Notes under the pieces: generated by a model | Databases searched by the model: none | Told to the model about the DNA's origin: nothing | Seen by the model: only the letters and a program-made list of their open reading frames with translations | Assembly: GCA_030538235.1 (NCBI GenBank) | Contig: JAUNUJ010000010.1 | Location: forward strand, 1 to 64,000 | Direction: 5' to 3' | Source of the DNA: Alcaligenaceae bacterium | GTDB lineage: Bacteria; Pseudomonadota; Gammaproteobacteria; Burkholderiales; Burkholderiaceae_B | Length of the DNA: 64,000 nucleotides | Translations under genes and position numbers: made by a program | Shown: positions 1 to 55,900 of the stretch, in pieces | Position numbering within the stretch: the stretch's first letter is position 1 | How the letters are laid out: each line of letters opens with the position of its first letter

Positions 1-305
1 CTTATTTGAAAAAAACTTTAAATTAAATTTGAATTTATCAATTTGTGTTGTTTTTTGCACCGAAACATTTAATCGCTTCTTTATGCCTCTAGGGAAATCC
101 CTAGACCCCTGAACTGGGAAAGATATGAATTATGGGCTATTTATTTTCCGCTGTCAAGCCTATAGTCTTTTTCTTGCAAATTCTTGTTGCACAAATGCAC
201 ACAGATAATTCCTACTGAACTTTTATTATAGTCCTATCCCCAATTAAAACAAGCGCTTTTAGCCATTTCTCCAAACTCTCCCAAGCCTATCTCTTTAATT
301 CCTTA
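1..305. other. AT-rich region upstream of nrdG
   Basis: No convincing gene is seen here. The stretch is AT-rich with short runs of A and T. The one clear structure is a tight inverted repeat at 89-104 (CTAGGGA, two bases, TCCCTAG). It may belong to the end of a gene lying outside the window, but no T-run follows it. Confidence 0.5.
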
Positions 306-319
306 TTGATTTATATCAA
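306..319. promoter_or_regulatory. FNR-type binding site
   Basis: TTGATTTATATCAA is a perfect match to the FNR/ANR consensus TTGAT-N4-ATCAA. It lies about 110 bp upstream of the preferred nrdG start. An activator at the common -41.5 position would place transcription start near 354, with a TATTAT-like -10 around 348-353 only roughly fitting. Class III ribonucleotide reductase is used without oxygen, so FNR activation makes sense. The match is seen directly; the role is inferred. Confidence 0.75.
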
Positions 320-373
320 ATACATCATTTAAACCTCTTGTCTTAACTATTATTCTTGGCAATAATCACCAAA

Positions 374-389
374 ACACAATATATAGTGT
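374..389. promoter_or_regulatory. NrdR box 1
   Basis: ACACAATATATAGTGT is a perfect match to the NrdR consensus (ACACWATATATWGTGT). With the second box, whose start is 31 bp downstream (about three helical turns), it forms the paired arrangement typical of NrdR-repressed ribonucleotide reductase genes. It lies between the probable FNR-driven start site and the nrdG ATG. Confidence 0.8.
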
Positions 390-404
390 TAATATTTTCT
401 AAAA

Positions 405-420
405 CCACAAGATATAGTGA
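405..420. promoter_or_regulatory. NrdR box 2
   Basis: CCACAAGATATAGTGA differs from the NrdR consensus at the two end positions and one central base. It starts 31 bp after box 1 and ends one base before the ATG at 422, so NrdR bound to both boxes would block the start of the gene. The pairing and phasing are the main support. Confidence 0.65.
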
Positions 421-421
421 T

Positions 422-886
422 ATGCAGAATTTAAGATATCGTCATGAAGAGGTCGTTTGGATTGAAGTGCCGGGTGAGGTATCACTGGCTTATCAATTCA
501 CAGGCTGCCCTTTACGTTGTAAAGGCTGTCATAGCGCCGATACATGGAAAGTAAATTCAGGCCAATTACTTAGTCTCGATTACTTTAGCCAACGCCTACA
601 ACAATATAAGCATTTAATTTCTTGCGTTCTATTTATGGGTGGCGAATGGCTATCTGAGCAATTAGTCCCCTATCTACAACTAGCAAAAGATAATAATTTA
701 AAAACTTGTTTATATACAGGCTTAGAAAAAGAGCAAGTCCCGACTCAATTACTACCTCTACTGGACTATTTAAAAACCGGACCCTGGATACCTGAATTAG
801 GTGGCCTAGACAATCCAAATAGCAATCAACGCTTTATAGATATGCAAAGCGGTAATTTACTTAACCACTTATTCCACAAAAACTAA
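422..886 (+). CDS. nrdG: Anaerobic ribonucleotide reductase activating protein (radical SAM)
   Basis: This is the activase of class III ribonucleotide reductase. Radical SAM chemistry at a 4Fe-4S cluster puts the glycyl radical on NrdD. The cluster motif CX3CX2C is at residues 29, 33 and 36 (CPLRCKGC), followed by a GGEW motif near residue 75, as in NrdG. The frame is open upstream to a TTG at 356, but that would place both NrdR boxes inside the coding sequence, so I choose ATG at 422 (154 aa, the usual NrdG size). It precedes nrdD by 35 bp and they are probably co-transcribed. The order nrdG-nrdD is the reverse of E. coli. There is no strong ribosome-binding site before 422. Confidence 0.85.
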   Translation: MQNLRYRHEEVVWIEVPGEVSLAYQFTGCPLRCKGCHSADTWKVNSGQLLSLDYFSQRLQQYKHLISCVLFMGGEWLSEQLVPYLQLAKDNNLKTCLYTGLEKEQVPTQLLPLLDYLKTGPWIPELGGLDNPNSNQRFIDMQSGNLLNHLFHKN

Positions 887-921
887 GTCACTTAACACGT
901 TATTTATTAAGGAATCTCACA

Positions 922-2703
922 ATGATACGGCTCACTCCCACTCAAATCAGTGCCAAACTCGGCTTTATGCGGAACTATATGGCTGCTCACAATGCTGCCG
1001 ACGGTTCCACCATGGATGCCAATGCCAATGTTACTCATAAAAACATTGCCACAATGGAGAGCGAATTACTTAAAGACTTTCTTATCCAAATTAATCGCTC
1101 ACAAGTTAGCGAGAAAATTACTGAAATCTTTGGTCAGGAGCTCGCTGATGAGTATATTCGTCAGATCGAGAATCACGAAATCTATGTTCACGATGAGACT
1201 AGCTTAAAGCCTTATTGTGTTTCAGTGACCCTGTATCCCTTTTTACATGACGGTCTTACTAAGTTGGGCGGTGAATCCAAAGCGCCTAAGCATCTAGACT
1301 CCTTTTGCGGCTCCTTTGTTAATCTAGTCTTTGCTATTAGCGCTCAGTTTGCTGGTGCGGTCGCTACTGTCGAGTTTCTTAACTACTTCGATTATTTTGC
1401 GCGTCAAGACTACGGTGATAATTACTTAGAAACTCACCCTTATGAAATCGCTAATCATTTACAGCATGTGGTTTATAGCATTAACCAGCCAGCAGCTGCA
1501 CGTGGTTATCAGAGCGTTTTCTGGAATATTTCTGTTTACGATAAATTTTATTTTGATGCGATGTTCGGTAACTTTGTGTTCCCGGATTTTAGCAAACCGG
1601 TTTGGGAAAGTGTCTCGCGCTTGCAGGACTTTTTCCTAACTTGGTTTAATCAGGAGCGCACAAAATCAATTCTTACCTTCCCTGTGGTGACTGCCGCCAT
1701 GCTCACTGAAGATGGCCAGTGTAAAGACAAAGTATTTGCCAATCAACTGGCTAAAGAATTATCAGAGGGCAACTCCTTTTTTATTTACTTGTCGGATAAT
1801 CCTGACTCTCTAGCCTCTTGCTGCCGTTTACGCAATGAAATTGATGACCACACTTTCTCCTATACATTAGGGGCAGGTGGTGTGGCTACCGGTTCAATTA
1901 ATGTCATTACGATTAATATGAATAGACTGGAGCAAGACGGTCGTGATTTAGCAACGGAAGTCGATAAAATCCATCGCTATCAATTTGCCTATCGCAAACT
2001 GATGGAAGACTATTTAAATGCCGGTATGCTGTCAGTTTATGATGCGGGCTTTATTAGTATGGATAAGCAATTCCTAACTATTGGTATTAATGGCATGGTT
2101 GAAGCCGCAGAATCCCAAGGAATTAAAGCGAGCTACAATACCGAATATATTGATTTTGTACAAAGTCGTTTAAAAACCATCTTTGATGCCAATAAAAAAG
2201 CTTCAGCTCATTACGGTGTTCGTTTTAATACAGAATTTGTACCGGCAGAAAACCTCGGTGTTAAAAATGCTAAGTGGGACAGCGATGATGGCTATCAAGT
2301 CTCTCGCGAATGCTACAACTCCTATTTCTACCCGGTTGAAGACGAAAACGTTAATGCACTGGATAAACTCTTATTGCACGGTAGCGAGTTAGTTGATTGG
2401 TTGGATGGCGGTTCCGCCCTGCATCTAAACTTGGATGAGACCCTAACCCAACAAGGTTATAAGTCACTCTTTGATATTGCCGCACGCACCGGTTGTAATT
2501 ACTTCTGCATTAACGTCAAAATCACGATTTGTAATGCTTGCGACCATATTGATAAACGCACATTACAAGCTTGCAGCAGTTGTGGCTCAACAGATATTGA
2601 TTATGGCTCACGAGTGATCGGTTATTTGAAACGAATTTCTGCTTATAGTGAAGGTCGCCGACGTGAACACGCCTTGCGTCACTATCATAAAGATGCGGCA
2701 TAA
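922..2703 (+). CDS. nrdD: Anaerobic ribonucleoside-triphosphate reductase
   Basis: This is class III ribonucleotide reductase, which makes dNTPs without oxygen using a glycyl radical. The C-terminus carries a zinc site with paired cysteines at about 537/540 and 551/554, then the glycyl-radical region SRVIGYL with Gly near 567. At 593 aa it is shorter than E. coli NrdD (712 aa). The N-terminus enters the catalytic region almost at once and shows no ATP-cone, so dATP regulation through that domain appears to be missing. An AAGGA sits 8 bases before the ATG. It shares the FNR/NrdR-controlled promoter of nrdG and is followed by an intrinsic terminator. Confidence 0.93.
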   Translation: MIRLTPTQISAKLGFMRNYMAAHNAADGSTMDANANVTHKNIATMESELLKDFLIQINRSQVSEKITEIFGQELADEYIRQIENHEIYVHDETSLKPYCVSVTLYPFLHDGLTKLGGESKAPKHLDSFCGSFVNLVFAISAQFAGAVATVEFLNYFDYFARQDYGDNYLETHPYEIANHLQHVVYSINQPAAARGYQSVFWNISVYDKFYFDAMFGNFVFPDFSKPVWESVSRLQDFFLTWFNQERTKSILTFPVVTAAMLTEDGQCKDKVFANQLAKELSEGNSFFIYLSDNPDSLASCCRLRNEIDDHTFSYTLGAGGVATGSINVITINMNRLEQDGRDLATEVDKIHRYQFAYRKLMEDYLNAGMLSVYDAGFISMDKQFLTIGINGMVEAAESQGIKASYNTEYIDFVQSRLKTIFDANKKASAHYGVRFNTEFVPAENLGVKNAKWDSDDGYQVSRECYNSYFYPVEDENVNALDKLLLHGSELVDWLDGGSALHLNLDETLTQQGYKSLFDIAARTGCNYFCINVKITICNACDHIDKRTLQACSSCGSTDIDYGSRVIGYLKRISAYSEGRRREHALRHYHKDAA

Positions 2704-2737
2704 CAGATTAGCTGTTACTCAGTAGCTAACAACAGCA

Positions 2738-2768
2738 CGGCACACTCTTAATAGAGGGTGCCGTTTTT
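2738..2768 (+). terminator. Intrinsic terminator of nrdGD
   Basis: A CGGCAC-ACTCT stem pairs with AGAG-GGTGCCG around a short TTAAT loop and is followed by five T residues. It lies 34 bp after the nrdD stop and faces the end of the convergent methylase gene. Confidence 0.85.
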
Positions 2769-2777
2769 CTGTGCAAA

Positions 2778-3668
2778 TCAATCACCAATCACCAAAATCT
2801 CAGAGACTCGCCCCCGCCCACCTGCCCTAGCGGATATTAAACGAGTCGCTTCGATTCTCATTATTTTATAGTCCTGATAAAGATCATCAAAAAAACCATC
2901 TGTTTTATCCGTATTCTTAGGGTCGGAATTACTTAAAACAAAGGTCGCCTCTTGCCCATAAATACGCTCACAGAACTGCGCTAATCTACGTTGCTCCTGA
3001 TCATTAAAATCGCCCTTGGCATAAGCGGTAAAAGCCGCTGTGTCAGATATTGGTCTATAAGGGCTGTCAAAATAAAATAAAGTCTTCGAATCCGCATAGC
3101 GCAAAGTTTCCTCAAAATCACCTAATAAGATCTCGGTATTTTGCAACACATCACGCACTCGTTGAAAATTTTGCACATCCACCAACTTGATGTGTGATTT
3201 TTTACCAAAGGGCACATTAAAGAGACCCTGACTGTTCACCCGATAAAGTCCATTAAATCCCAGTCTATTAAGAGCAACAAAAAAGGCGGCATGCTCAAGT
3301 CCCATTTGCCCCGTCAATATCCCCCGATTAAACTTCTCTCTAAGGGTGTAATAGAATAGCTCCTTTTCTTCATCACTTGACTGTGAATTAAAGTCCGCCT
3401 CTAAAGACTGTAATAGTGACAATAAAGCCACACTATCATCTCTAAGTTTCAAATACAAATTAACTAAATCTGCGTTGATATCAGAAATGACTTTTTCTTT
3501 GAAACTGAAACGATTAGAAATAGCAAAGAACATTCCACCGCCACCGACAAATGGCTCTACGTACCTATCAAAACTACCCCAATCAATAAACCTTTGGGAC
3601 ATCTCAATAATGGTTTCAGACAGTCTGTATTTTCCCCCTGCCCATTTAATCATCGGTTTAGTCATCAT
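2778..3668 (-). CDS. D12-class DNA adenine methylase (Dam/DpnM type) with DSPY motif
   Basis: The predicted activity is methylation of the adenine N6 position in a short site, probably GATC. Domains: KWAGGK at residues 8-13, the SAM-binding motif EPFVGGGGMF at 38-47, and the catalytic motif near the end at 201-204. That motif reads DSPY instead of the canonical DPPY, in the context FYFDSPYRP, so the first proline is replaced by serine. The length (296 aa) is normal. No restriction endonuclease is visible beside it, so it is an orphan methylase here. Two adjacent ATGs (3668 and 3665) could start it. Target specificity cannot be read from the sequence. Confidence 0.85.
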   Translation of the reverse strand: MMTKPMIKWAGGKYRLSETIIEMSQRFIDWGSFDRYVEPFVGGGGMFFAISNRFSFKEKVISDINADLVNLYLKLRDDSVALLSLLQSLEADFNSQSSDEEKELFYYTLREKFNRGILTGQMGLEHAAFFVALNRLGFNGLYRVNSQGLFNVPFGKKSHIKLVDVQNFQRVRDVLQNTEILLGDFEETLRYADSKTLFYFDSPYRPISDTAAFTAYAKGDFNDQEQRRLAQFCERIYGQEATFVLSNSDPKNTDKTDGFFDDLYQDYKIMRIEATRLISARAGGRGRVSEILVIGD

Positions 3669-3900
3669 CTTATTTTAAATATAAATCTTTTATCTACTTA
3701 TCAATCTAGGATTGTAACCCAGGCGCGATCTCTACTTATCTAAGCCTCAAGATTTACCATCTATTTGTTAATTAAAGGATTTTTCAAAATTCGACCGCGA
3801 AATAAAAGGCAATCTTTCTATTCATGAAACTGAAATAATTCATTGTTAAGATTCATGTCACAAACAAATTCATATTGACAACTTCCTACAAGGACAAGAG
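3669..3900. promoter_or_regulatory. Divergent intergenic region between methylase and phnD
   Basis: These 232 bp must hold the promoters of the methylase (left) and the phn operon (right). TTCAT recurs at 3821, 3839, 3852 and 3869. The spacing is irregular and does not fit the 11-bp repeats of a PhoB box, so I make no regulator call. AAGGACAAGAG just before the phnD ATG contains the ribosome-binding site. Confidence 0.4.
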
Positions 3901-4879
3901 ATGTTTAAATTAAAAAATCTTGCTTTAGCGGCTTTATTAGCAGCTCTACCACTAAGCAGCCAAGCCATGGACCCTCGCTTTACTGACGCTGATGGCGATT
4001 TAGTTGCTGATGCTCCGACCGATCCTAAAGATTGGATTGATCCAGCTACTCTGGTTTTCTCTTATACCCCAGTTGAAGACCCTGCAGTTTACGCTGAAGT
4101 ATGGAAAGAGTTTATTGATCACTTAGCTGCAGAGACCGGTAAAAAAGTTCAGTTCTTCCCAGTTCAAAGCAACGCCGCTCAGCTAGAAGCAATGCGTGCC
4201 GGTCGTTTACACGTTGCTGGTTTTAACACAGGTTCAAACCCATTAGCTGTTAACTGTGCCGGTTTTGTGCCTTTCGCTATGATGGCTGCAAATGACGACG
4301 CTTACGGCTACGAGATGGAAATCCTTACCTACCCGGGTAGCGGCATCGAAAAAGTAGAAGATATTCGTGGCAAAAAATTAGCCTTTACTTATTCGTGGCA
4401 AAAAATTAGCCTTTACTTCTGAAACGTCCAACTCTGGTTACAAAGCGCCTTCTGCTTTATTAAAGCAAGAGTTCAAGATGGAAGCCGGCAAAGACTTTGA
4501 ACCTGTATTCAGCGGTAAGCACGATAACTCTATCCTTGGTGTTGCTAACAAAGATTACCCTGCAGCCGCTATCGCTAACTCAGTACTTTCTCGTATGCTT
4601 GAGCGTGATGTAGTTAAGAGCGAGCAATTAGTTTCTATCTACAAATCTCAGTCTTTCCCTACGACTGGTTACGGCTACGTTTATAACTTAAAGCCTGAAT
4701 TAGCTGAAAAAGTTAAAGCGGCATTCTTTAACTTCAACTGGGAAGGTACCGGTTTAGCCAAAGAGTTTAACCACGTAAACCCTCCACAAGAAAAATTCAT
4801 GCCTATCACTTTCAAAGAGCACTGGCAAGTTGTACGCGATATCGATGCTGCTATGGAAGTTAGCTACGACTGTAAGTAA
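3901..4879 (+). pseudogene. phnD: Phosphonate/phosphite-type ABC transporter binding protein, frameshifted
   Basis: This is the periplasmic binding protein of a PhnD-family importer. Residues 1-22 form a signal peptide ending SSQA, followed by the YTPVEDPAVY region and the ligand-pocket region around FPVQSNAAQ. The frame is broken by a perfect 28-bp tandem duplication (4363-4390 and 4391-4418). As it stands, translation ends at 4422 after 173 aa. An ATG at 4478 opens the rest of the protein to 4879. Removing one copy restores a continuous 316-aa protein reading through TSETSNSGYKAP, a hallmark of the family. All other parts look intact, so the event is recent, reversible, or a sequence error. 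It heads the phn operon. Confidence 0.9.
4363..4418. repeat. Perfect 28-bp tandem duplication inside phnD
   Basis: Unit 1 is 4363-4390 and unit 2 is 4391-4418. They are identical base for base, including a run of six A in each. Since 28 is not a multiple of three, the second copy shifts the frame and brings in a stop at 4420-4422. Confidence 0.97.
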
Positions 4880-4903
4880 TTTAAGTAAATAAAGGTATTT
4901 CTA

Positions 4904-5767
4904 ATGCTTAAACTTGTTGACCTTGAAAAGCGTTATAGCAGCAATGAGATAGCGCTTAAGGGGATCAACCTTGAAATCCAATCAGGCGAAGTTATTGGCC
5001 TGATTGGGCCTTCAGGTGCCGGTAAATCAACTCTTATCCGTTGTGTAAACCGCTTAGTTGAACCCACCAAAGGCTCTATTCTGCTTCAAGATAAAGATCT
5101 TAATAAACTATCCAAAAGTGGTTTAAGACAAGAGCGTCGCCGTATCGGCATGATTTTCCAAGAATACGCTCTAGTTGAACGCTTAACTGTGATGGAAAAC
5201 GTACTGTCAGGCCGTTTAGGTAATATGGGTTTCTGGAACAGCTGGTTTCGCCGTTTTAGTCCGGAAGACATTGCCCAAGCCTACGAACTCTTAGATCGAG
5301 TAGGCCTCAAAGGCAAAGAAAACAATCGCGCCGATGAATTATCGGGTGGTCAACGTCAACGCGTCGGGATCGCCCGCGCGCTGATTCAACGTCCTGACCT
5401 CATGCTGATTGATGAGCCTACAGCTAGCCTGGATCCTAAGACGTCACGTCAGATTATGCGCCTAATTATTGAGCTTTGTCGCGAACGCGGCCTTGCTGCA
5501 ATTGTCAATATTCACGACGTTGTCTTGGCTACCGAATTCCTCCCTAGAATCGTCGGTTTACGTGCCGGCTCGATTGTTTTTGACGGTCCATCAAAAGATG
5601 TGAACACTGCAGTACTCACTGAAATTTATGGTGATGAGGATTGGACTTCAATCAGCAAAAAGCTTGCTTCTCAACATAGCGAAGATGATGATGATCCTGA
5701 AGAACAACTCAATTCTGTTAAAGAACCTATCCAAACTCTGAGAACTGCCGCTGTCGGTGCTGCTTAA
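4904..5767 (+). CDS. phnC: Phosphonate-type ABC transporter ATPase
   Basis: This is the ATP-hydrolysing subunit of the PhnCDE importer on the cytoplasmic face of the inner membrane. Walker [10 protein letters not shown] is at 35-43, the ABC signature [15 protein letters not shown] near 146-160 and Walker [14 protein letters not shown] near 166-178. An H-loop histidine follows in NIHDVVLA. The last 35 residues form an acidic tail (EDDDDPEEQ) beyond the usual end of the family. It starts 24 bp after phnD with AAAGG as ribosome-binding site. It is intact even though the binding protein upstream is frameshifted. Confidence 0.92.
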
Positions 5768-5784
5768 CTAAGGAAGTTGATGTA

Positions 5785-6609
5785 ATGAACAATCCTGCAA
5801 CTTCCTTGATGCCCCCTGCCTATCCAACTCAGTGGAAAAAGCCTCCCTTTATCAGCAACCCACTAATTCGTTACAGCCTAATCTTAGGCGCCATTATTTA
5901 TTTAATTTTAAGTATTGGCTCCTTGGAAATTAACTGGGTTCGTTTAAGCCAAGGTTGGGAGCGTGCTTGGGTATTTGTCAAAGGCTTTTTATCGCCTGAC
6001 TTTACGACTCGAGGCACTGATATATTGCAAGGCATGATCGAGAGTCTGACCATGGCGTTAACCTCTACCGCTGCCGGGATTATTATTTCCATCCCAATCG
6101 CGGTGGGCGCTGCTAAAAACTTGAGCCCTAGCTGGTTGTATTTAATTTGTCGCGGCATTATTGCCATTTCCAGAACGCTCAATGAAATCATTGTGGCGAT
6201 TTTTATGGTGTCTTTGTTCGGTTTTGGTGCCTTTGCCGGCTTCTTGACTTTGACCTTTGCCACCATCGGCTTCCTTGCTAAGTTATTAGCCGAAGATATC
6301 GAAGAAATTCAAGCTTCCCAACTTGAAGCCATGGAAGCAACCGGTGCCGGCTTTATGCAGACTCTTGACTTTGCAGTTCTCACGCAATGTCTTCCGCGCT
6401 TAGTGGGCTTATCACTATATCGCCTAGATATTAACTTCCGTGAGTCTGCCGTTATCGGAATTATCGGCGCCGGTGGTATTGGCGGTACCTTAGGAACTGC
6501 CATGGATCGTTACGAATATAGTTCTGCAGCAGCTATTTTGCTCTTAATTATTGCAGTCGTCATGCTAGCTGAATACGGATCAAGCTGGGTTCGTCGGAAA
6601 ATGTTATGA
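5785..6609 (+). CDS. phnE: Phosphonate-type ABC transporter permease 1
   Basis: This is an inner-membrane permease of the PhnE family, 274 aa with about six predicted membrane segments. The cytoplasmic EAA-like loop is seen around EAMEATGAGFMQTL, followed by the family motif INFRESAVIGIIGAGGIGG. It starts 17 bp after phnC and overlaps the next permease gene by ATGA, a sign of translational coupling. Two PhnE-like permeases presumably form a heterodimer with PhnC. No C-P lyase or phosphonatase gene follows, so the window does not show what happens to the substrate. Confidence 0.9.
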   Translation: MNNPATSLMPPAYPTQWKKPPFISNPLIRYSLILGAIIYLILSIGSLEINWVRLSQGWERAWVFVKGFLSPDFTTRGTDILQGMIESLTMALTSTAAGIIISIPIAVGAAKNLSPSWLYLICRGIIAISRTLNEIIVAIFMVSLFGFGAFAGFLTLTFATIGFLAKLLAEDIEEIQASQLEAMEATGAGFMQTLDFAVLTQCLPRLVGLSLYRLDINFRESAVIGIIGAGGIGGTLGTAMDRYEYSSAAAILLLIIAVVMLAEYGSSWVRRKML

Positions 6610-7430
6610 GTAGTACATTAAATTTAAATTCGCCGAATACGGCCAAATGGAGTAAACGCACTCCCCTACAAAACGCCACGGTGTTCATGATTTGGTTAAT
6701 CGCCATTGCCTTTGTGGTGTGGTCTTTCCAAGTCATGACTAAAGACACCATCTGGGCCTTTGTGATGGATGCGCCTCGCCAGGCACAAGATATTGGCTCC
6801 CGTATGATGCCACCCAACTGGCTCTCTATGAACGAGCTATGGTGGCCGCTTTGGGAGACCTTAAATATTGCCACTCTAGGCACTTTGTTAGGAACTGCAT
6901 TGGCTGTGCCGGTAGCCTTTATGGCTGCTCGCAACACCACACCTAGTGCCATGTTCCTGCGTCCTCTGGCCTTATTTATTATTGTTTCCTCGCGTTCGAT
7001 TAACTCGTTAATCTGGGCTTTACTACTGGTGTCGATTTTAGGCCCTGGTGTATTGGCCGGTATTATCGCTATCGCTCTTCGTTCTATTGGTTTCGTTGGT
7101 AAATTGCTCTATGAATCCATTGAAGAGATTAGTCCTACTCCGGTAGAAGCGATTGTTTCGACCGGTGCGAGTCGTTCACAGGTAATTGCTTGGAGTGTCT
7201 TTCCACAAGTCGCCCCCACTTTAGCCGGAATTACTGTGTTTCGTTGGGATATTAATATCCGCGAATCCACTGTACTGGGTTTAGTTGGCGCCGGTGGTAT
7301 GGGCTTAAAACTCAATGCAGCACTAAACACGCTAGCTTGGCCTAAAGTCACCATGATTTTGATTGTGATTTTTGCAACAGTGATTGTCAGTGAATGGATC
7401 ACGATGAAGGTTAGACAAAAGCTTATCTAA
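6606..7430 (+). CDS. phnE: Phosphonate-type ABC transporter permease 2
   Basis: This is the second PhnE-family permease, also 274 aa. It carries the coupling loop EAIVSTGASRSQVI and the motif INIRESTVLGLVGAGGMG, aligned with the same region of the first permease. Its start codon overlaps the stop of the upstream gene (ATGA at 6606-6609). It is the last gene of the phnDCEE operon and a terminator-like hairpin follows. The two permeases are clearly related but diverged, so this is an old duplication typical of the family. Confidence 0.9.
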   Translation: MSSTLNLNSPNTAKWSKRTPLQNATVFMIWLIAIAFVVWSFQVMTKDTIWAFVMDAPRQAQDIGSRMMPPNWLSMNELWWPLWETLNIATLGTLLGTALAVPVAFMAARNTTPSAMFLRPLALFIIVSSRSINSLIWALLLVSILGPGVLAGIIAIALRSIGFVGKLLYESIEEISPTPVEAIVSTGASRSQVIAWSVFPQVAPTLAGITVFRWDINIRESTVLGLVGAGGMGLKLNAALNTLAWPKVTMILIVIFATVIVSEWITMKVRQKLI

Positions 7431-7526
7431 TTACGATGACTTTGCTTAACAGCGAATCTCGTCAGTCACAGGTCTGTTACCTCACTAAGTGAACTACCGT
7501 TTAAAGTTGGACGCTTAGTTTCAAGC

Positions 7527-7570
7527 AAAGGACTGATTTCTGTATCAAACAGGACTCAGTCCTTTTGTTT
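7527..7570 (+). terminator. Intrinsic terminator of the phn operon
   Basis: AAAGGACTGA (7527-7536) pairs perfectly with TCAGTCCTTT (7556-7565) across a 19-nt loop. TTTTGTTTTG follows. It lies about 100 bp after the phnE stop. Confidence 0.75.
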
Positions 7571-8028
7571 TGCCACTTAGTATTTCAGTTTATGACACTA
7601 TTTTCTTTCTTCATACCCATGAAAGTGGTGCCAACCTGAGGATTCCGAAGCTGTCACAACGAATCGTTCAGCTCAGAATCAAAATACTCGTTTGCTGATT
7701 TGATAGTAGCGCCGAGGGTAGTGGAACTTTAAAACAACTTTTTCTGTATTCTAAGACCTCAAGTAGTAATACCTTGTTAATTAATTTGAAAATGATATAT
7801 TTATAAAGTACCAAAAGATAACATCAAACAAAGAATTTCTAGCTGTTAAACATGTATTTAACATGCTTGAGCATATATCAAGCTTTACAATTTGAATCGT
7901 CTAGACCACCGATTAAATTTTTTAATTTGTGGCACAAACAGTATAATTTAACTTTAGGCATATAAATTACCATATTTGTTCTTGATTTTTAGATTAGATT
8001 ATGCTAAATTAGGAAAAACTTAGTCGCT
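7571..8028. other. Gene-free region with a possible 5S rRNA-like remnant
   Basis: No open frame of note is seen. A stretch near 7705-7724 (GTAGCGCCGAGGGTAGTGGA) resembles the distal part of bacterial 5S rRNA (GTAGCGCCGATGGTAGTGTG). Shorter pieces upstream (CCAACCTGAGGATTCCGAA near 7630-7650, CTCAGAA near 7672) resemble its central part in the right order. The whole cannot be a working 5S gene because it contains insertions. The rest (7730-8028) is very AT-rich and holds the promoter of the following regulator. Confidence 0.25.
7976..8005 (+). promoter_or_regulatory. Probable promoter of the ArsR-family regulator
   Basis: TTGTTC (7976-7981), an 18-bp spacer and TATGCT (8000-8005) fit a sigma-70 promoter. 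An imperfect AT-rich inverted repeat (TTAG...CTAA, 7989-8007) overlaps the -10, where an ArsR-type repressor could bind its own gene. Both calls rest on sequence pattern only. Confidence 0.35.
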
Positions 8029-8331
8029 ATGAACACACAACTTTTAACATTAGAAACGCTAGCCGAAGAGGCTGCGGACTTTATCAAAACTCTAGGTAAC
8101 CCGCATCGGCTTTTAGTCCTATGCCTATTGGTCGAGATGGGTGAGCTCAATGTTGGACAGATTCACCAGCATTCGAGCCTGAGTCAATCAGCCTTATCAC
8201 AGCATATTGCAATTATGCGTGAAGAGGGTCTGATTAGCTATCGTAGAGAGGCTCAAACCCTTTACTACCGCATAGCTGATGATAGAGTCTTTAAAATCGT
8301 TTCTGTTCTAAAACAAATCTTCTGTCCTTAA
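8029..8331 (+). CDS. ArsR-family regulator, BigR/SqrR-like
   Basis: This is a 100-aa winged-helix repressor. The recognition helix lies in SLSQSALSQHIAIMREEGLI (about residues 48-68), followed by a wing with RREAQTLYYRI. It has cysteines in VLCLL (about residue 33) and at the C-terminal end (IFCP), the positions of the paired thiols that sense persulfide in BigR/SqrR proteins. The LSQSALSQH and RREAQT sequences also match that subgroup better than metal-sensing ArsR proteins. The next two genes encode a rhodanese and a DUF2892 protein, which supports a role in sulfide or persulfide response. The sensing function is inferred. Confidence 0.8.
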   Translation: MNTQLLTLETLAEEAADFIKTLGNPHRLLVLCLLVEMGELNVGQIHQHSSLSQSALSQHIAIMREEGLISYRREAQTLYYRIADDRVFKIVSVLKQIFCP

Positions 8332-8368
8332 TTCGACATTTTAATTTTTTATCAGAGAACAATTTAAT

Positions 8369-8884
8369 ATGACTTTGCCACTCATTTCCCCCGACAAAGC
8401 CGCTGCCCTAGTCAAGGACGGCGCTACCCTGATTGATATCCGTTCTGCCGGTGAGTATAGCCATCGCCACATCACTGATTCTCAAAATCAGTCAATCGAT
8501 CAGATGTCTAAAGACTCCCTACCAGCTGAAGGCGTGGTGATTTTTACCTGTCAATCCGGCATGCGTACTCGCACCAATGCCAACAAATTAGCTGCAGCAG
8601 CTCAGAACTGCAAGCAGTTCTATATTCTTGAGGGCGGGGTTGATGGTTGGCAAAAACAAGGTCTGCCGGTAGAGATTGCTGCTAACGCACCTCTAGAGTT
8701 GCAGCGTCAAGTTCAGATTGCGGTTGGTATCTTAGTGATTCTCGGCGTTGTCCTGGGCACTTGGGTCAATCCGGGTTGGTATATCTTAAGCGCCTTTGTC
8801 GGTGCCGGTTTATTGATGGCCGGTGTCACCGGCTTCTGTGGCTTGGCACGTGTACTGATGTTGGCTCCTTGGAATAAGGTATAA
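8369..8884 (+). CDS. Membrane-anchored rhodanese (YgaP-like sulfurtransferase)
   Basis: Residues 1-110 form a rhodanese domain with the active-site loop CQSGMRT (about residues 65-71), in which the cysteine carries the persulfide. Residues from about 115 form a two-helix membrane domain ending GFCGLARVLMLAPWNK, closely like the C-terminus of E. coli YgaP. The predicted role is transfer or detoxification of sulfane sulfur at the inner membrane. It starts 37 bp after the BigR-like regulator and is probably under its control. Length 171 aa, as in the family. Confidence 0.9.
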   Translation: MTLPLISPDKAAALVKDGATLIDIRSAGEYSHRHITDSQNQSIDQMSKDSLPAEGVVIFTCQSGMRTRTNANKLAAAAQNCKQFYILEGGVDGWQKQGLPVEIAANAPLELQRQVQIAVGILVILGVVLGTWVNPGWYILSAFVGAGLLMAGVTGFCGLARVLMLAPWNKV

Positions 8885-8982
8885 GCTCAAGGATTACTGC
8901 TTAGTCGCAAGCTACTACGCAATAGCTTATACTGATGATAAGTAATTACTAAATTGTTCTTCAACCACAAAGAGGATATGTT

Positions 8983-9165
8983 ATGAACAAAAATATTGGT
9001 AGTACAGACCGTTGGATTCGTATATTTGTCGGTGTTGTTTTAATCGCCTTAACCCTAACCGGCACCATTGGTGTTTGGGGTTGGATTGGTATTATCCCAT
9101 TGGCAACTGCATTAATTAACTTCTGCCCTCTTTATCGCATCCTAGGTTTCAGAACTAATAAATAG
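8983..9165 (+). CDS. DUF2892 family small membrane protein
   Basis: This 60-aa protein has a start like many DUF2892 proteins (NIGSTDRWIRIFVGV), two hydrophobic helices and the ending INFCPLYRILGFRTNK with its conserved cysteine. The same fold forms the membrane domain of the upstream YgaP-like rhodanese. GAGG lies 8 bases before the ATG. Its function is not known; the conserved cysteine and the neighbours suggest a part in sulfur handling. A strong terminator follows, closing the three-gene unit. Confidence 0.85.
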   Translation: MNKNIGSTDRWIRIFVGVVLIALTLTGTIGVWGWIGIIPLATALINFCPLYRILGFRTNK

Positions 9166-52961: not shown

Positions 52962-55900
52962 TTAGATGATTAAGAAATCGGTACTGTCCAACGTTGGTGT
53001 ATTGGTCAACGTCGCAAACTGCACCGCCGCACCACTACCCGAGCCGTCGGCATCATAGGAAAGGGCACCCGTGGTGTTGTTATACAATACGGTGGGTGCC
53101 TCGGTACTAGCTGCAGCCCCAGTTTCAAAGGTCACCGTATCACCGGCATTCAAGCCCGTAAACACTAGGGAGCTCAGCACTAATTTATCTCCATCGGTCT
53201 TGCTGAAGTCAGTCACAGCATCTACGTTCCGGCCATCCGGCATCAAAGGTGCAACAAACACAAACTTATCGGCACCTGTACCACCCGTTAAGGCGTCCTT
53301 ACCCATACCACCAACCAGATAATCATCACCGGCATCACCATTAAGAGTGTCATCACCCTGACCTCCATATAGGTAGTCATTGCCATCGCCACCGTTCAAG
53401 ATATCATTACCCAAACCACCATATAGTTTGTCATGACCGGCGCCACCGTTCAAGGTATCGTTACCTAGACCGCCATCCATGATGTCGTCGCCGGCGGTGC
53501 CGGTCAAGGTATCGTTTGTCACATTACCTTGATGCGTCGCATTGGCAATAGGTAAAGCTGAGACGTCGATCACCATCGTATTAGTCATGGAGTCGCCATC
53601 ATTATCCGTTACCTTGAAACCGAACACGACCGGATCGTGATTAGGGACGCTATCGGCTGGATTAAAGACCACGCCACCGTTAGGACTCTTGCCGGTCATT
53701 TCCACCGTCAATGTACTCCCTCCCGCTAAATTGACTGTCAGAACGCCATCGGCATGAGTCCATCCTCCACCGCTAGGACCGGTTAGTACACCTTCTCTGG
53801 TGCTTGTGAAGGTCTTGTCGCCAACATACACCTCAGAGACAAAACCACCGTCGGCACCAAAGCCTGTGAACATACCGATTAAAGAAGCCTTGATGACACT
53901 GCTCAACACATCCACTGCCTGTGGGACCGTGCCTACCAAAACCGCACCAAGCTGACTCATGTCTGAGACCATAATAGCCATATCGTTATTGTCAAGATTG
54001 TTTAAGCCATCGTAGGCAATTGGATCCAGCTCAGACTTGCTAGAAGCGCCAAAACCGAGTGCGTAGGATTTTATGTCATTAGCTCTAAGAAAAGCTTCCC
54101 AAGTGTTCTGCAGTGTTTGGTTTACATTCCCACCAAAATTCGGTTCCCCATCACTCATGAAATATGAGAGATTATTGACACCCTCTCCTGTAAGTGGAGG
54201 GTTGCCGCCGTACTCGCTCGCATTAAAATTATCTAGCAACTCGTCCAAAGCCTGCCGATAGTTGGTACCGCCCCCAGCATACAGAGAACTCAAATAATTC
54301 TTTGCAGCAGCAATAGAGACCCACCCCGGCGAAACCTGTGTCGCACTACTTGCAAATGTGCTCAGGTTGACCCTGACCTCACCATTCGTTGAACCGACTG
54401 CATCCACTTGGGCTTGGTATGTATCAAGCATGGTTTCGATAGCTTCGATCGCAGCTTGCAGGCGCGTCTTCCCTGGAATATCAGATCTATAACCCATGCT
54501 TCCAGAGACGTCTAAGCTAATCATCACGTTGGCATAGAAGGTATTTGTTACCCCCACCGTTTCGTACACTGTAGAAACCATCGGGCTATCATCTTCCACA
54601 CTCACCGTGAGCGTTAACGGCGTACTGTCTGCGATGCCGTCATTGACCACCAAGCCAAAGGCTAAGTCTAAGGCGTCTTCCGTTGCGCTATCCGGGTGAT
54701 CGATGGGACCACTTAAGGTCACCGTGTAGTCCGCTTTAAAGCCATTGGTCACACCGGCATCTGCCGTCACTGTGCCCACACTCACACGGATCACTTCTTG
54801 ACCACCGGCAGAGCCGATGATCACACCCGCCGTGCTCACATCCCACGTGATGGCTTGGCCACCCGAGGTGAAGGCACCGGTGGGGGCCGTGAAGTTAAAG
54901 CCAAAGTCGCCGGCCGCATTATCCACGTCAGTGAACTTAATGCCGTCCGCCACCGTGACTGTGGCCTCATTGGTCGTGTCCGGATTACCGACGTCATCCA
55001 CGAGACCGCCCGCTAAGCCTTCTTCCGAGACCGACGCGGTCAAGGTGCTGCTGCCCGCATCCACCACCGGCACATCGTTGGTCCCCGTGATCGTGATCGT
55101 TAAGGTCGCAACCTTGCTATCACCGTCTGCGTCCGTGATGGTGTACTCATAACTCTCCGTTAAGGTATCACCCTCGTTGAGCGCATCAACATCTGGGCTA
55201 CTGTTGTTCAAGGTATAGGTGTAGCTACCGTCGGCATTCAGTACCAAGGTGCCATAGCTCAAGTCACCGTTATGCGCCGACACACTGCCCGCCCCATCTG
55301 CACCGAAGCCGTCGTTTGCTAAGACATTACCTGTTACCGTGGCAACACCTTCTGCTATCGTGTTCGTATCGTCCACCGCGACCGGGCTATCATCTTCCAC
55401 ACTCACCGTGAGCGTTAACGGCGTACTGTCTGCGATGCCGTCATTGACCACCAAGCCAAAGGCTAAGTCTAAGGCGTCTTCCGTTGCGCTATCCGGGTGA
55501 TCGATGGGACCACTTAAGGTCACCGTGTAGTCCGCTTTAAAGCCATTGGTCACACCGGCATCTGCCGTCACTGTGCCCACACTCACACGGATCACTTCTT
55601 GACCACCGGCAGAGCCGATGATCACACCCGCCGTGCTCACATCCCACGTGATGGCTTGGCCACCCGAGGTGAAGGCACCGGTGGGGGCCGTGAAGTTAAA
55701 GCCAAAGTCGCCGGCCGCATTATCCACGTCAGTGAACTTAATGCCGTCCGCCACCGTGACTGTGGCCTCATTGGTCGTGTCCGGATTACCGACGTCATCC
55801 ACGAGACCGCCCGCTAAGCCTTCTTCCGAGACCGACGCGGTCAAGGTGCTGCTGCCCGCATCCACCACCGGCACATCGTTGGTCCCCGTGATCGTGATCG

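Follow-up and report, generated by a model that had tools for sequence, protein, structure and literature searches.

In an Oligella genome (G000), a 28-bp stretch, perfectly duplicated head to tail, interrupts the gene for the binding protein of a PhnT-family importer. The best reading of this arrangement, with a probability of about 0.6, is a very recent and private loss-of-function duplication. The gene stands ahead of one ATPase gene and two permease genes in the window, by which is meant the whole 64-kb stretch of DNA that was analysed; the coordinates are collected in Table 1.

Table 1. Positions in the window of the duplicated unit, the two pieces of the binding-protein gene and the downstream importer genes.
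Feature	Position	Strand	Remarks
28-bp unit, copy 1	4362..4389	+	register 4362 (4363 equivalent); TRF, exact comparison, repeat search
28-bp unit, copy 2	4390..4417	+	head to tail with copy 1; base 4418 adds 1 to the match
5' piece of binding-protein gene	3901..4422	+	ORF, 173 aa; signal peptide region and family frame
3' piece of binding-protein gene	4382..4879	+	open in +1 frame, 165 aa
ATPase gene, PhnC family	4904..5767	+	open; TIGR02315, 335.1 bits against a cut-off of 266.1
Permease gene 1, PhnE family	5785..6609	+	open; TIGR01097, 263.5 bits against a cut-off of 216.7
Permease gene 2, PhnE family	6606..7430	+	open; TIGR01097, 266.4 bits against a cut-off of 216.7

The two 28-bp units are identical to each other. 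TRF reports them at 4362-4418 with a period of 28, 2.0 copies and a 100% match, head to tail, and an exact comparison places the unit equally well in two registers, starting at 4362 or 4363, which gives a self-match of 29 bp. The identical units that the preliminary description had placed at 4363-4418 are real, 4363 being one of these two equivalent starts. No other perfect tandem pair with a period of 10-300 was found in the 64-kb window, where the second-longest self-match at such distances is 14 bp. In 20 simulated order-2 Markov sequences of the window's length, the longest self-match was 11-14 bp, and two of the 20 contained some short perfect pair with a period of at least 10; very short pairs do arise by chance, and a perfect tandem of 28 bp is far beyond it. 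Elsewhere in the window, at 53285-53516, TRF reported a 54-bp unit repeated about four times, the copies being roughly 70% alike.

Because 28 is not a multiple of three, translation would run out of the family frame once it enters the second copy and would stop at 4420. The 5' piece starts with residues 1-163 in the family frame, continues with 10 out-of-frame residues and ends in a premature TGA at 4420-4422. It shares 94% identity with the O. urethralis protein over residues 1-163 and scores 95.5 bits against PF12974, and the 3' piece is 97% identical to residues 155-316 of the same protein. Removal of one unit had been claimed to restore a full-length protein with the family sequence TSETSNSGYKAP, and this sequence was found in the second (+1) frame and in 7/7 aligned relatives. 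Since the early stop falls just ahead of where the family frame encodes the SNS phosphate loop, the product would be at most an N-terminal piece of 173 residues, lacking six of the nine ligand residues: those of the loop and, further on, His, Arg and Thr. The first ATG, GTG or TTG of the 3' piece is the ATG at 4478, beyond the loop (ORF 4478-4879); a protein restarted there would have neither signal peptide nor SNS loop and would presumably be defective. No second copy of the gene was found in the genome, in which the family model matches the two pieces only, while a Phosphonate-bd family search returned eight matches, comprising the two pieces and six more distant binding proteins. Given a truncated product, a defective restart product and no other gene copy, loss of function of the binding-protein gene would be the expected outcome, and an importer left with no binding protein should not work.

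Relatives carry the gene in its uninterrupted form. Seven other Oligella genomes, one per species, served as the congener set, and in six of them the gene was found at 80-84% DNA identity over 951 bp, which is 28 bp shorter than in the window. Each of the six has one unit and an open frame of 316 codons; the seventh congener (G005) gave no match to the binding-protein gene. In the alignment, 28 extra columns occur in the window only and are a gap in 7/7 relatives, and the six congener loci (L002-L007), as well as a Pelistega MAG (L008), have open frames of 316 codons. A larger set of 80 relatives, mostly from Burkholderiales and Alphaproteobacteria and including the records of the six congeners, was drawn from public genomes as the best 80 of 300 related loci, ranked by similarity to the 3' piece of the window. 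The gene is open across residues 150-180, with no indel, in 79 of these best 80 of 300. In the exception, a Burkholderiaceae MAG (L057:1-754), the two halves are out of frame with each other and have lost residues in between, as a result of a frame-shifting deletion that may be an assembly edge effect, since the contig begins inside the gene. In everything searched, with one genome per species, the two-unit form is private to this genome.

The preliminary description had also held that the rest of the operon is intact, and this stands: the ATPase gene and the two permease genes have open frames, each scoring above its NCBIfam cut-off. The two permease genes overlap by 4 bp, and dN/dS of the ATPase and permease genes is about 0.02 to 0.09 against the six congeners, where dS is estimable. 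For the broken gene itself, divergence was calculated with the repeat skipped, over 3901-4359 (5' half) and 4421-4876 (3' half), or 151-153 codons. Between the window and the six congeners, the 5' half has 8-18.5 nonsynonymous differences and the 3' half 5-22.8, and among the 15 pairs of congeners the figures are 7-21.8 and 9-24; the highest value of the window in the 3' half, 22.8 against L007, lies inside the 15-pair range of 9-24. Residues found in the window only number 1 in the 5' half and 0 in the 3' half, and the corresponding counts for the other six sequences are 0-3 and 0-3. Neither half shows relaxed selection, and both are as conserved as in the congeners, by a test that has little power against a young break since synonymous divergence is almost saturated (dS of about 1-3, in some comparisons too high to estimate).

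Two observations concern the surroundings of the gene. The stretch before the start codon, at 3740-3903 of the window, is conserved among seven Oligella loci and is possibly a promoter or operator. In Lampropedia puyangensis (L009:5290-7575), two adjacent binding-protein genes stand ahead of the ATPase gene, the second of which is about 53% identical to the 3' piece of the window.

A 28-bp stretch in the binding-protein gene would have been duplicated head to tail, very recently, in this Oligella lineage, probably through a one-off slip in replication or repair that made use of almost no microhomology. Against the single-unit form of the relatives, the junction has a microhomology of 1 bp, shared by the unit's start and the base that follows the unit, and the interval 4300-4480 contains neither an inverted repeat nor a further direct repeat of at least 8 bp; nothing in these features indicates a standing repeat as the source. 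The DNA in the cell would then be the same as in the assembly, import would be lost, and a rare loss of one copy could undo the break.

Perfect tandem pairs were also sought elsewhere in the genus, with periods of 12-400 and low-complexity units dropped, in stretches chosen by contig number and not at random. The window plus 800 kb of the same genome (864 kb) contain three such pairs, of 28, 26 and 16 bp. Four pairs, of 15, 19, 19 and 23 bp, were found in 400 kb of G001 and G002, and three, of 12, 12 and 18 bp, in 400 kb of G005, including 1,328 N, both 12-bp pairs being part of one array. In the loci of the 80 relatives (855 kb; best 80 of 300), scanned with a slightly laxer filter, only L059 has pairs, three of 12 bp. 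Thus the genome under study is not richer in pairs than G001 and G002, yet it is richer than the loci of the 80 relatives. With perfect pairs in several Oligella genomes, small perfect duplications are a normal mutation class in the genus. Reading frames were examined around six of the nine Oligella pairs outside the window; the other three have lengths divisible by 3. For five of the six, whose lengths are not divisible by 3, the surrounding open frame measures no more than 69 codons; the sixth, the 18-bp pair, lies in a frame of 571 codons. The 28-bp pair of the window is the only one found to shift the frame inside a long open frame. The 26-bp pair of the same genome, at L135:10825-10876 (contig C13, about 150825-150876), is intergenic by the ORF list and has no junction microhomology. 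Both it and the 28-bp pair lie near a gene for a D12/Dam-like adenine methyltransferase, which is probably a coincidence; the one near the 26-bp pair, at L135:9849-10658, was recognised by eye.

The case is one of a small tandem duplication silencing a transporter gene, and such cases are already known. The duplication in phnE of E. coli K-12, for which Makino et al. in 1991 are reportedly the reference, is said to have been termed reversible phase variation by Iqbal et al. in 2004. An 8-bp duplication in phnE silences the PhnCDE importer, while the great majority of E. coli strains have a functional gene (PMC6469041, PMC3463581); slippage gives rise to revertants, for which phosphorus limitation selects (PMC6469041, PMC3463581, PMC4759930). 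Both duplications are short, have a length that is not a multiple of three and silence one gene of a PhnT-family importer, but that of E. coli affects a permease gene and measures 8 bp, whereas that of Oligella affects the binding-protein gene and measures 28 bp. Furthermore, revertants of E. coli K-12 have been isolated and C-P lyase is present there, whereas PhnJ was not found in the Oligella genome. In pneumococci, the type 3 capsule locus, cap8E and tts reportedly vary by spontaneous duplications, as described by Waite et al. in 2001 and 2003. Phase variation through sequence duplication is described for the serotype 8 capsule as well (PMC4022640). There too the duplications fall inside an open reading frame, but they concern a surface capsule for which phase variation is reported, whereas in Oligella they concern one allele of a nutrient importer in one genome. 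No paper on this Oligella locus appeared among the literature matches listed.

The preliminary description had left three readings side by side, namely fresh loss, a reversible switch and an assembly error. Fresh loss has gained support from the single unit in 6/7 congeners and from the lack of decay, a dedicated switch is not supported, and an assembly error is less likely than fresh loss but has an appreciable probability. In such an artefact, two ends overlapping by 28 bp would have been joined with the overlap left unmerged, which would create a false tandem copy. A junction almost without microhomology is what an unmerged overlap would be expected to leave, and the gene is otherwise fully conserved. 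The genome is a draft of 14 contigs, the distance from the site to the end of contig C12 is 3.9 kb, and assembly is generally weaker near contig ends. The 26-bp pair, similarly perfect and without junction microhomology, belongs to the same genome, of which 864 kb hold three pairs of at least 16 bp against a maximum of 12 bp in the 855 kb of the relatives' loci. However, the pairs of this genome differ in length (28, 26 and 16 bp), and G001 and G002 have pairs too, so that there is no fixed-length signature; in addition, a 56-bp tandem is normally resolved within one read by short-read assemblers.

A reversible on/off switch, by which cells would alternate between one and two units and uptake would go on and off by phase variation, is unlikely. 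The conservation of both gene halves would suit it, as would the precedents of phnE in E. coli K-12, with its slippage revertants, and of the pneumococcal capsule genes that reportedly switch by spontaneous duplications. The unit has a frame-shifting length (28 bp, not a multiple of three), as at a contingency locus, but repeated switching would also need a repeat at this place in relatives or in the on form, and none is seen: a second unit occurs in 0/7 aligned relatives and in 0/79 open loci (best 80 of 300). The one-unit state seen in relatives therefore has nothing that would drive duplication at a high rate, the 1-bp junction microhomology and the lack of another repeat nearby point the same way, and phase-variation switches do not typically act on nutrient importers. 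A programmed switch was rejected, there being no repeat or hairpin at the site or in relatives besides the duplication itself. Rare spontaneous reversion is likely, by analogy with E. coli K-12 phnE and on general grounds; that the two-unit allele would be a genuine off-state of a glycerol-phosphate importer, reversing spontaneously and with no pre-existing repeat, is an improbable extension of the same analogy. Least credible is that the duplication is tolerated, with ribosomal or transcriptional slippage in 4382-4419 yielding some near-full-length protein. Both frames are open over the entire second unit, which includes a run of six A, but such a run is rather short for slippage to be efficient, the product would gain extra residues right before the SNS ligand loop and beside the binding pocket, and 79/80 relatives (best 80 of 300) have a plain open frame here. 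A fresh, private loss of function is accordingly preferred for this allele.

What would have been lost is another matter, since "phnD", the name first given to the gene, is probably wrong, and gpxB-like is preferable; the loss of phosphonate uptake deduced from that name is then probably wrong too. The solved structure closest to a profile of seven relatives is GpxB (PDB 9LF9, 9LFB), 9LF9 being matched with an E of 5.8e-155 over 1-316. With the same profile, PtxB (phosphite) comes next at 9.2e-26, and E. coli PhnD (PDB 3p7i) is matched at 4.6e-11. The pieces of the window, searched alone, also match GpxB best (1.1e-70 for the 5' piece and 2.9e-71 for the 3' piece). In the GpxB study, this protein binds glycerol-1-phosphate and glycerol-3-phosphate, marine homologues having been assayed, and holds them by Thr111, Gly112, Tyr138, Ser168, Asn169, Ser170, His199, Arg223 and Thr247 (PMC12718374). 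All nine ligand residues are present here, as counted on the profile-structure alignment, the first three of this list lying in the 5' piece and the last six in the 3' piece. Among the relatives (best 80 of 300), Thr111, Gly112 and Tyr138 are kept in 79/79 each, Ser168, Asn169 and Ser170 in 80/80, 79/80 and 80/80, and His199, Arg223 and Thr247 in 79/80, 80/80 and 75/80. Likeness to GpxB thus covers the full-length match, the best match of both pieces and 9/9 ligand residues; unlike GpxB, the Oligella gene is split by a frame shift, and its product is a predicted glycerol-phosphate binder.

PhnD of E. coli, a 2-aminoethylphosphonate binding protein, belongs to the same binding-protein family (PF12974). 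It differs at two sites, since Arg223 and Thr247 of GpxB replace Glu177 and Asp205 of PhnD, as stated in PMC12718374, and by the same correspondence the family of the Oligella gene has Arg and Thr at these positions. On the NCBIfam PhnD equivalog model, the O. urethralis ortholog scores 133.7 bits and misses the cut-off of 261.1; this ortholog supplied the full-length score, the window gene having been scored in pieces only. PhnJ, the sole C-P lyase gene searched, has no match in the genome under study and is present in 2/8 genomes of the genus. The importer is probably one for glycerol-1-phosphate or glycerol-3-phosphate, and not for phosphonate, as predicted from the match to GpxB and the ligand residues.

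The gene content of the genus would count against the GpxB label, given the scarcity in it of GlpT, UgpB, the C-terminal domain of GlpD and GDPD. GlpT and UgpB were each found in 0/8 Oligella genomes, DAO_C of GlpD exceeded its cut-off in 0/8, with one weak match in G006, and GDPD occurs in 1/8, which is not the genome under study. No glycerol-phosphate gene was seen among the ten proteins scanned in window 1-9000. Ten flanking frames from ten relatives, one each, likewise had no common theme and included none that is clearly a glycerol-phosphate gene; two of them encode solute-binding proteins of other families, and one has no family. Should the GpxB label hold, then with neither GlpT nor UgpB found this importer may be the single one for glycerol phosphate in the genus, of the kinds searched for.

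In conclusion, the duplication adds a further PhnT-family importer silenced by one small duplication, beside phnE of E. coli K-12. Were the allele a reversible off-state after all, a lipid-derived phosphorus source would be lost and regained by the making and losing of short duplications. The larger use lies in the correction of the name from phosphonate to GpxB-like. GpxB has already been reported as widespread, Burkholderiales included, in PMC12718374. With its ligand residues kept in at least 75 of 79-80 relatives (best 80 of 300), the "phosphonate" importers of these bacteria may in fact be glycerol-phosphate importers.
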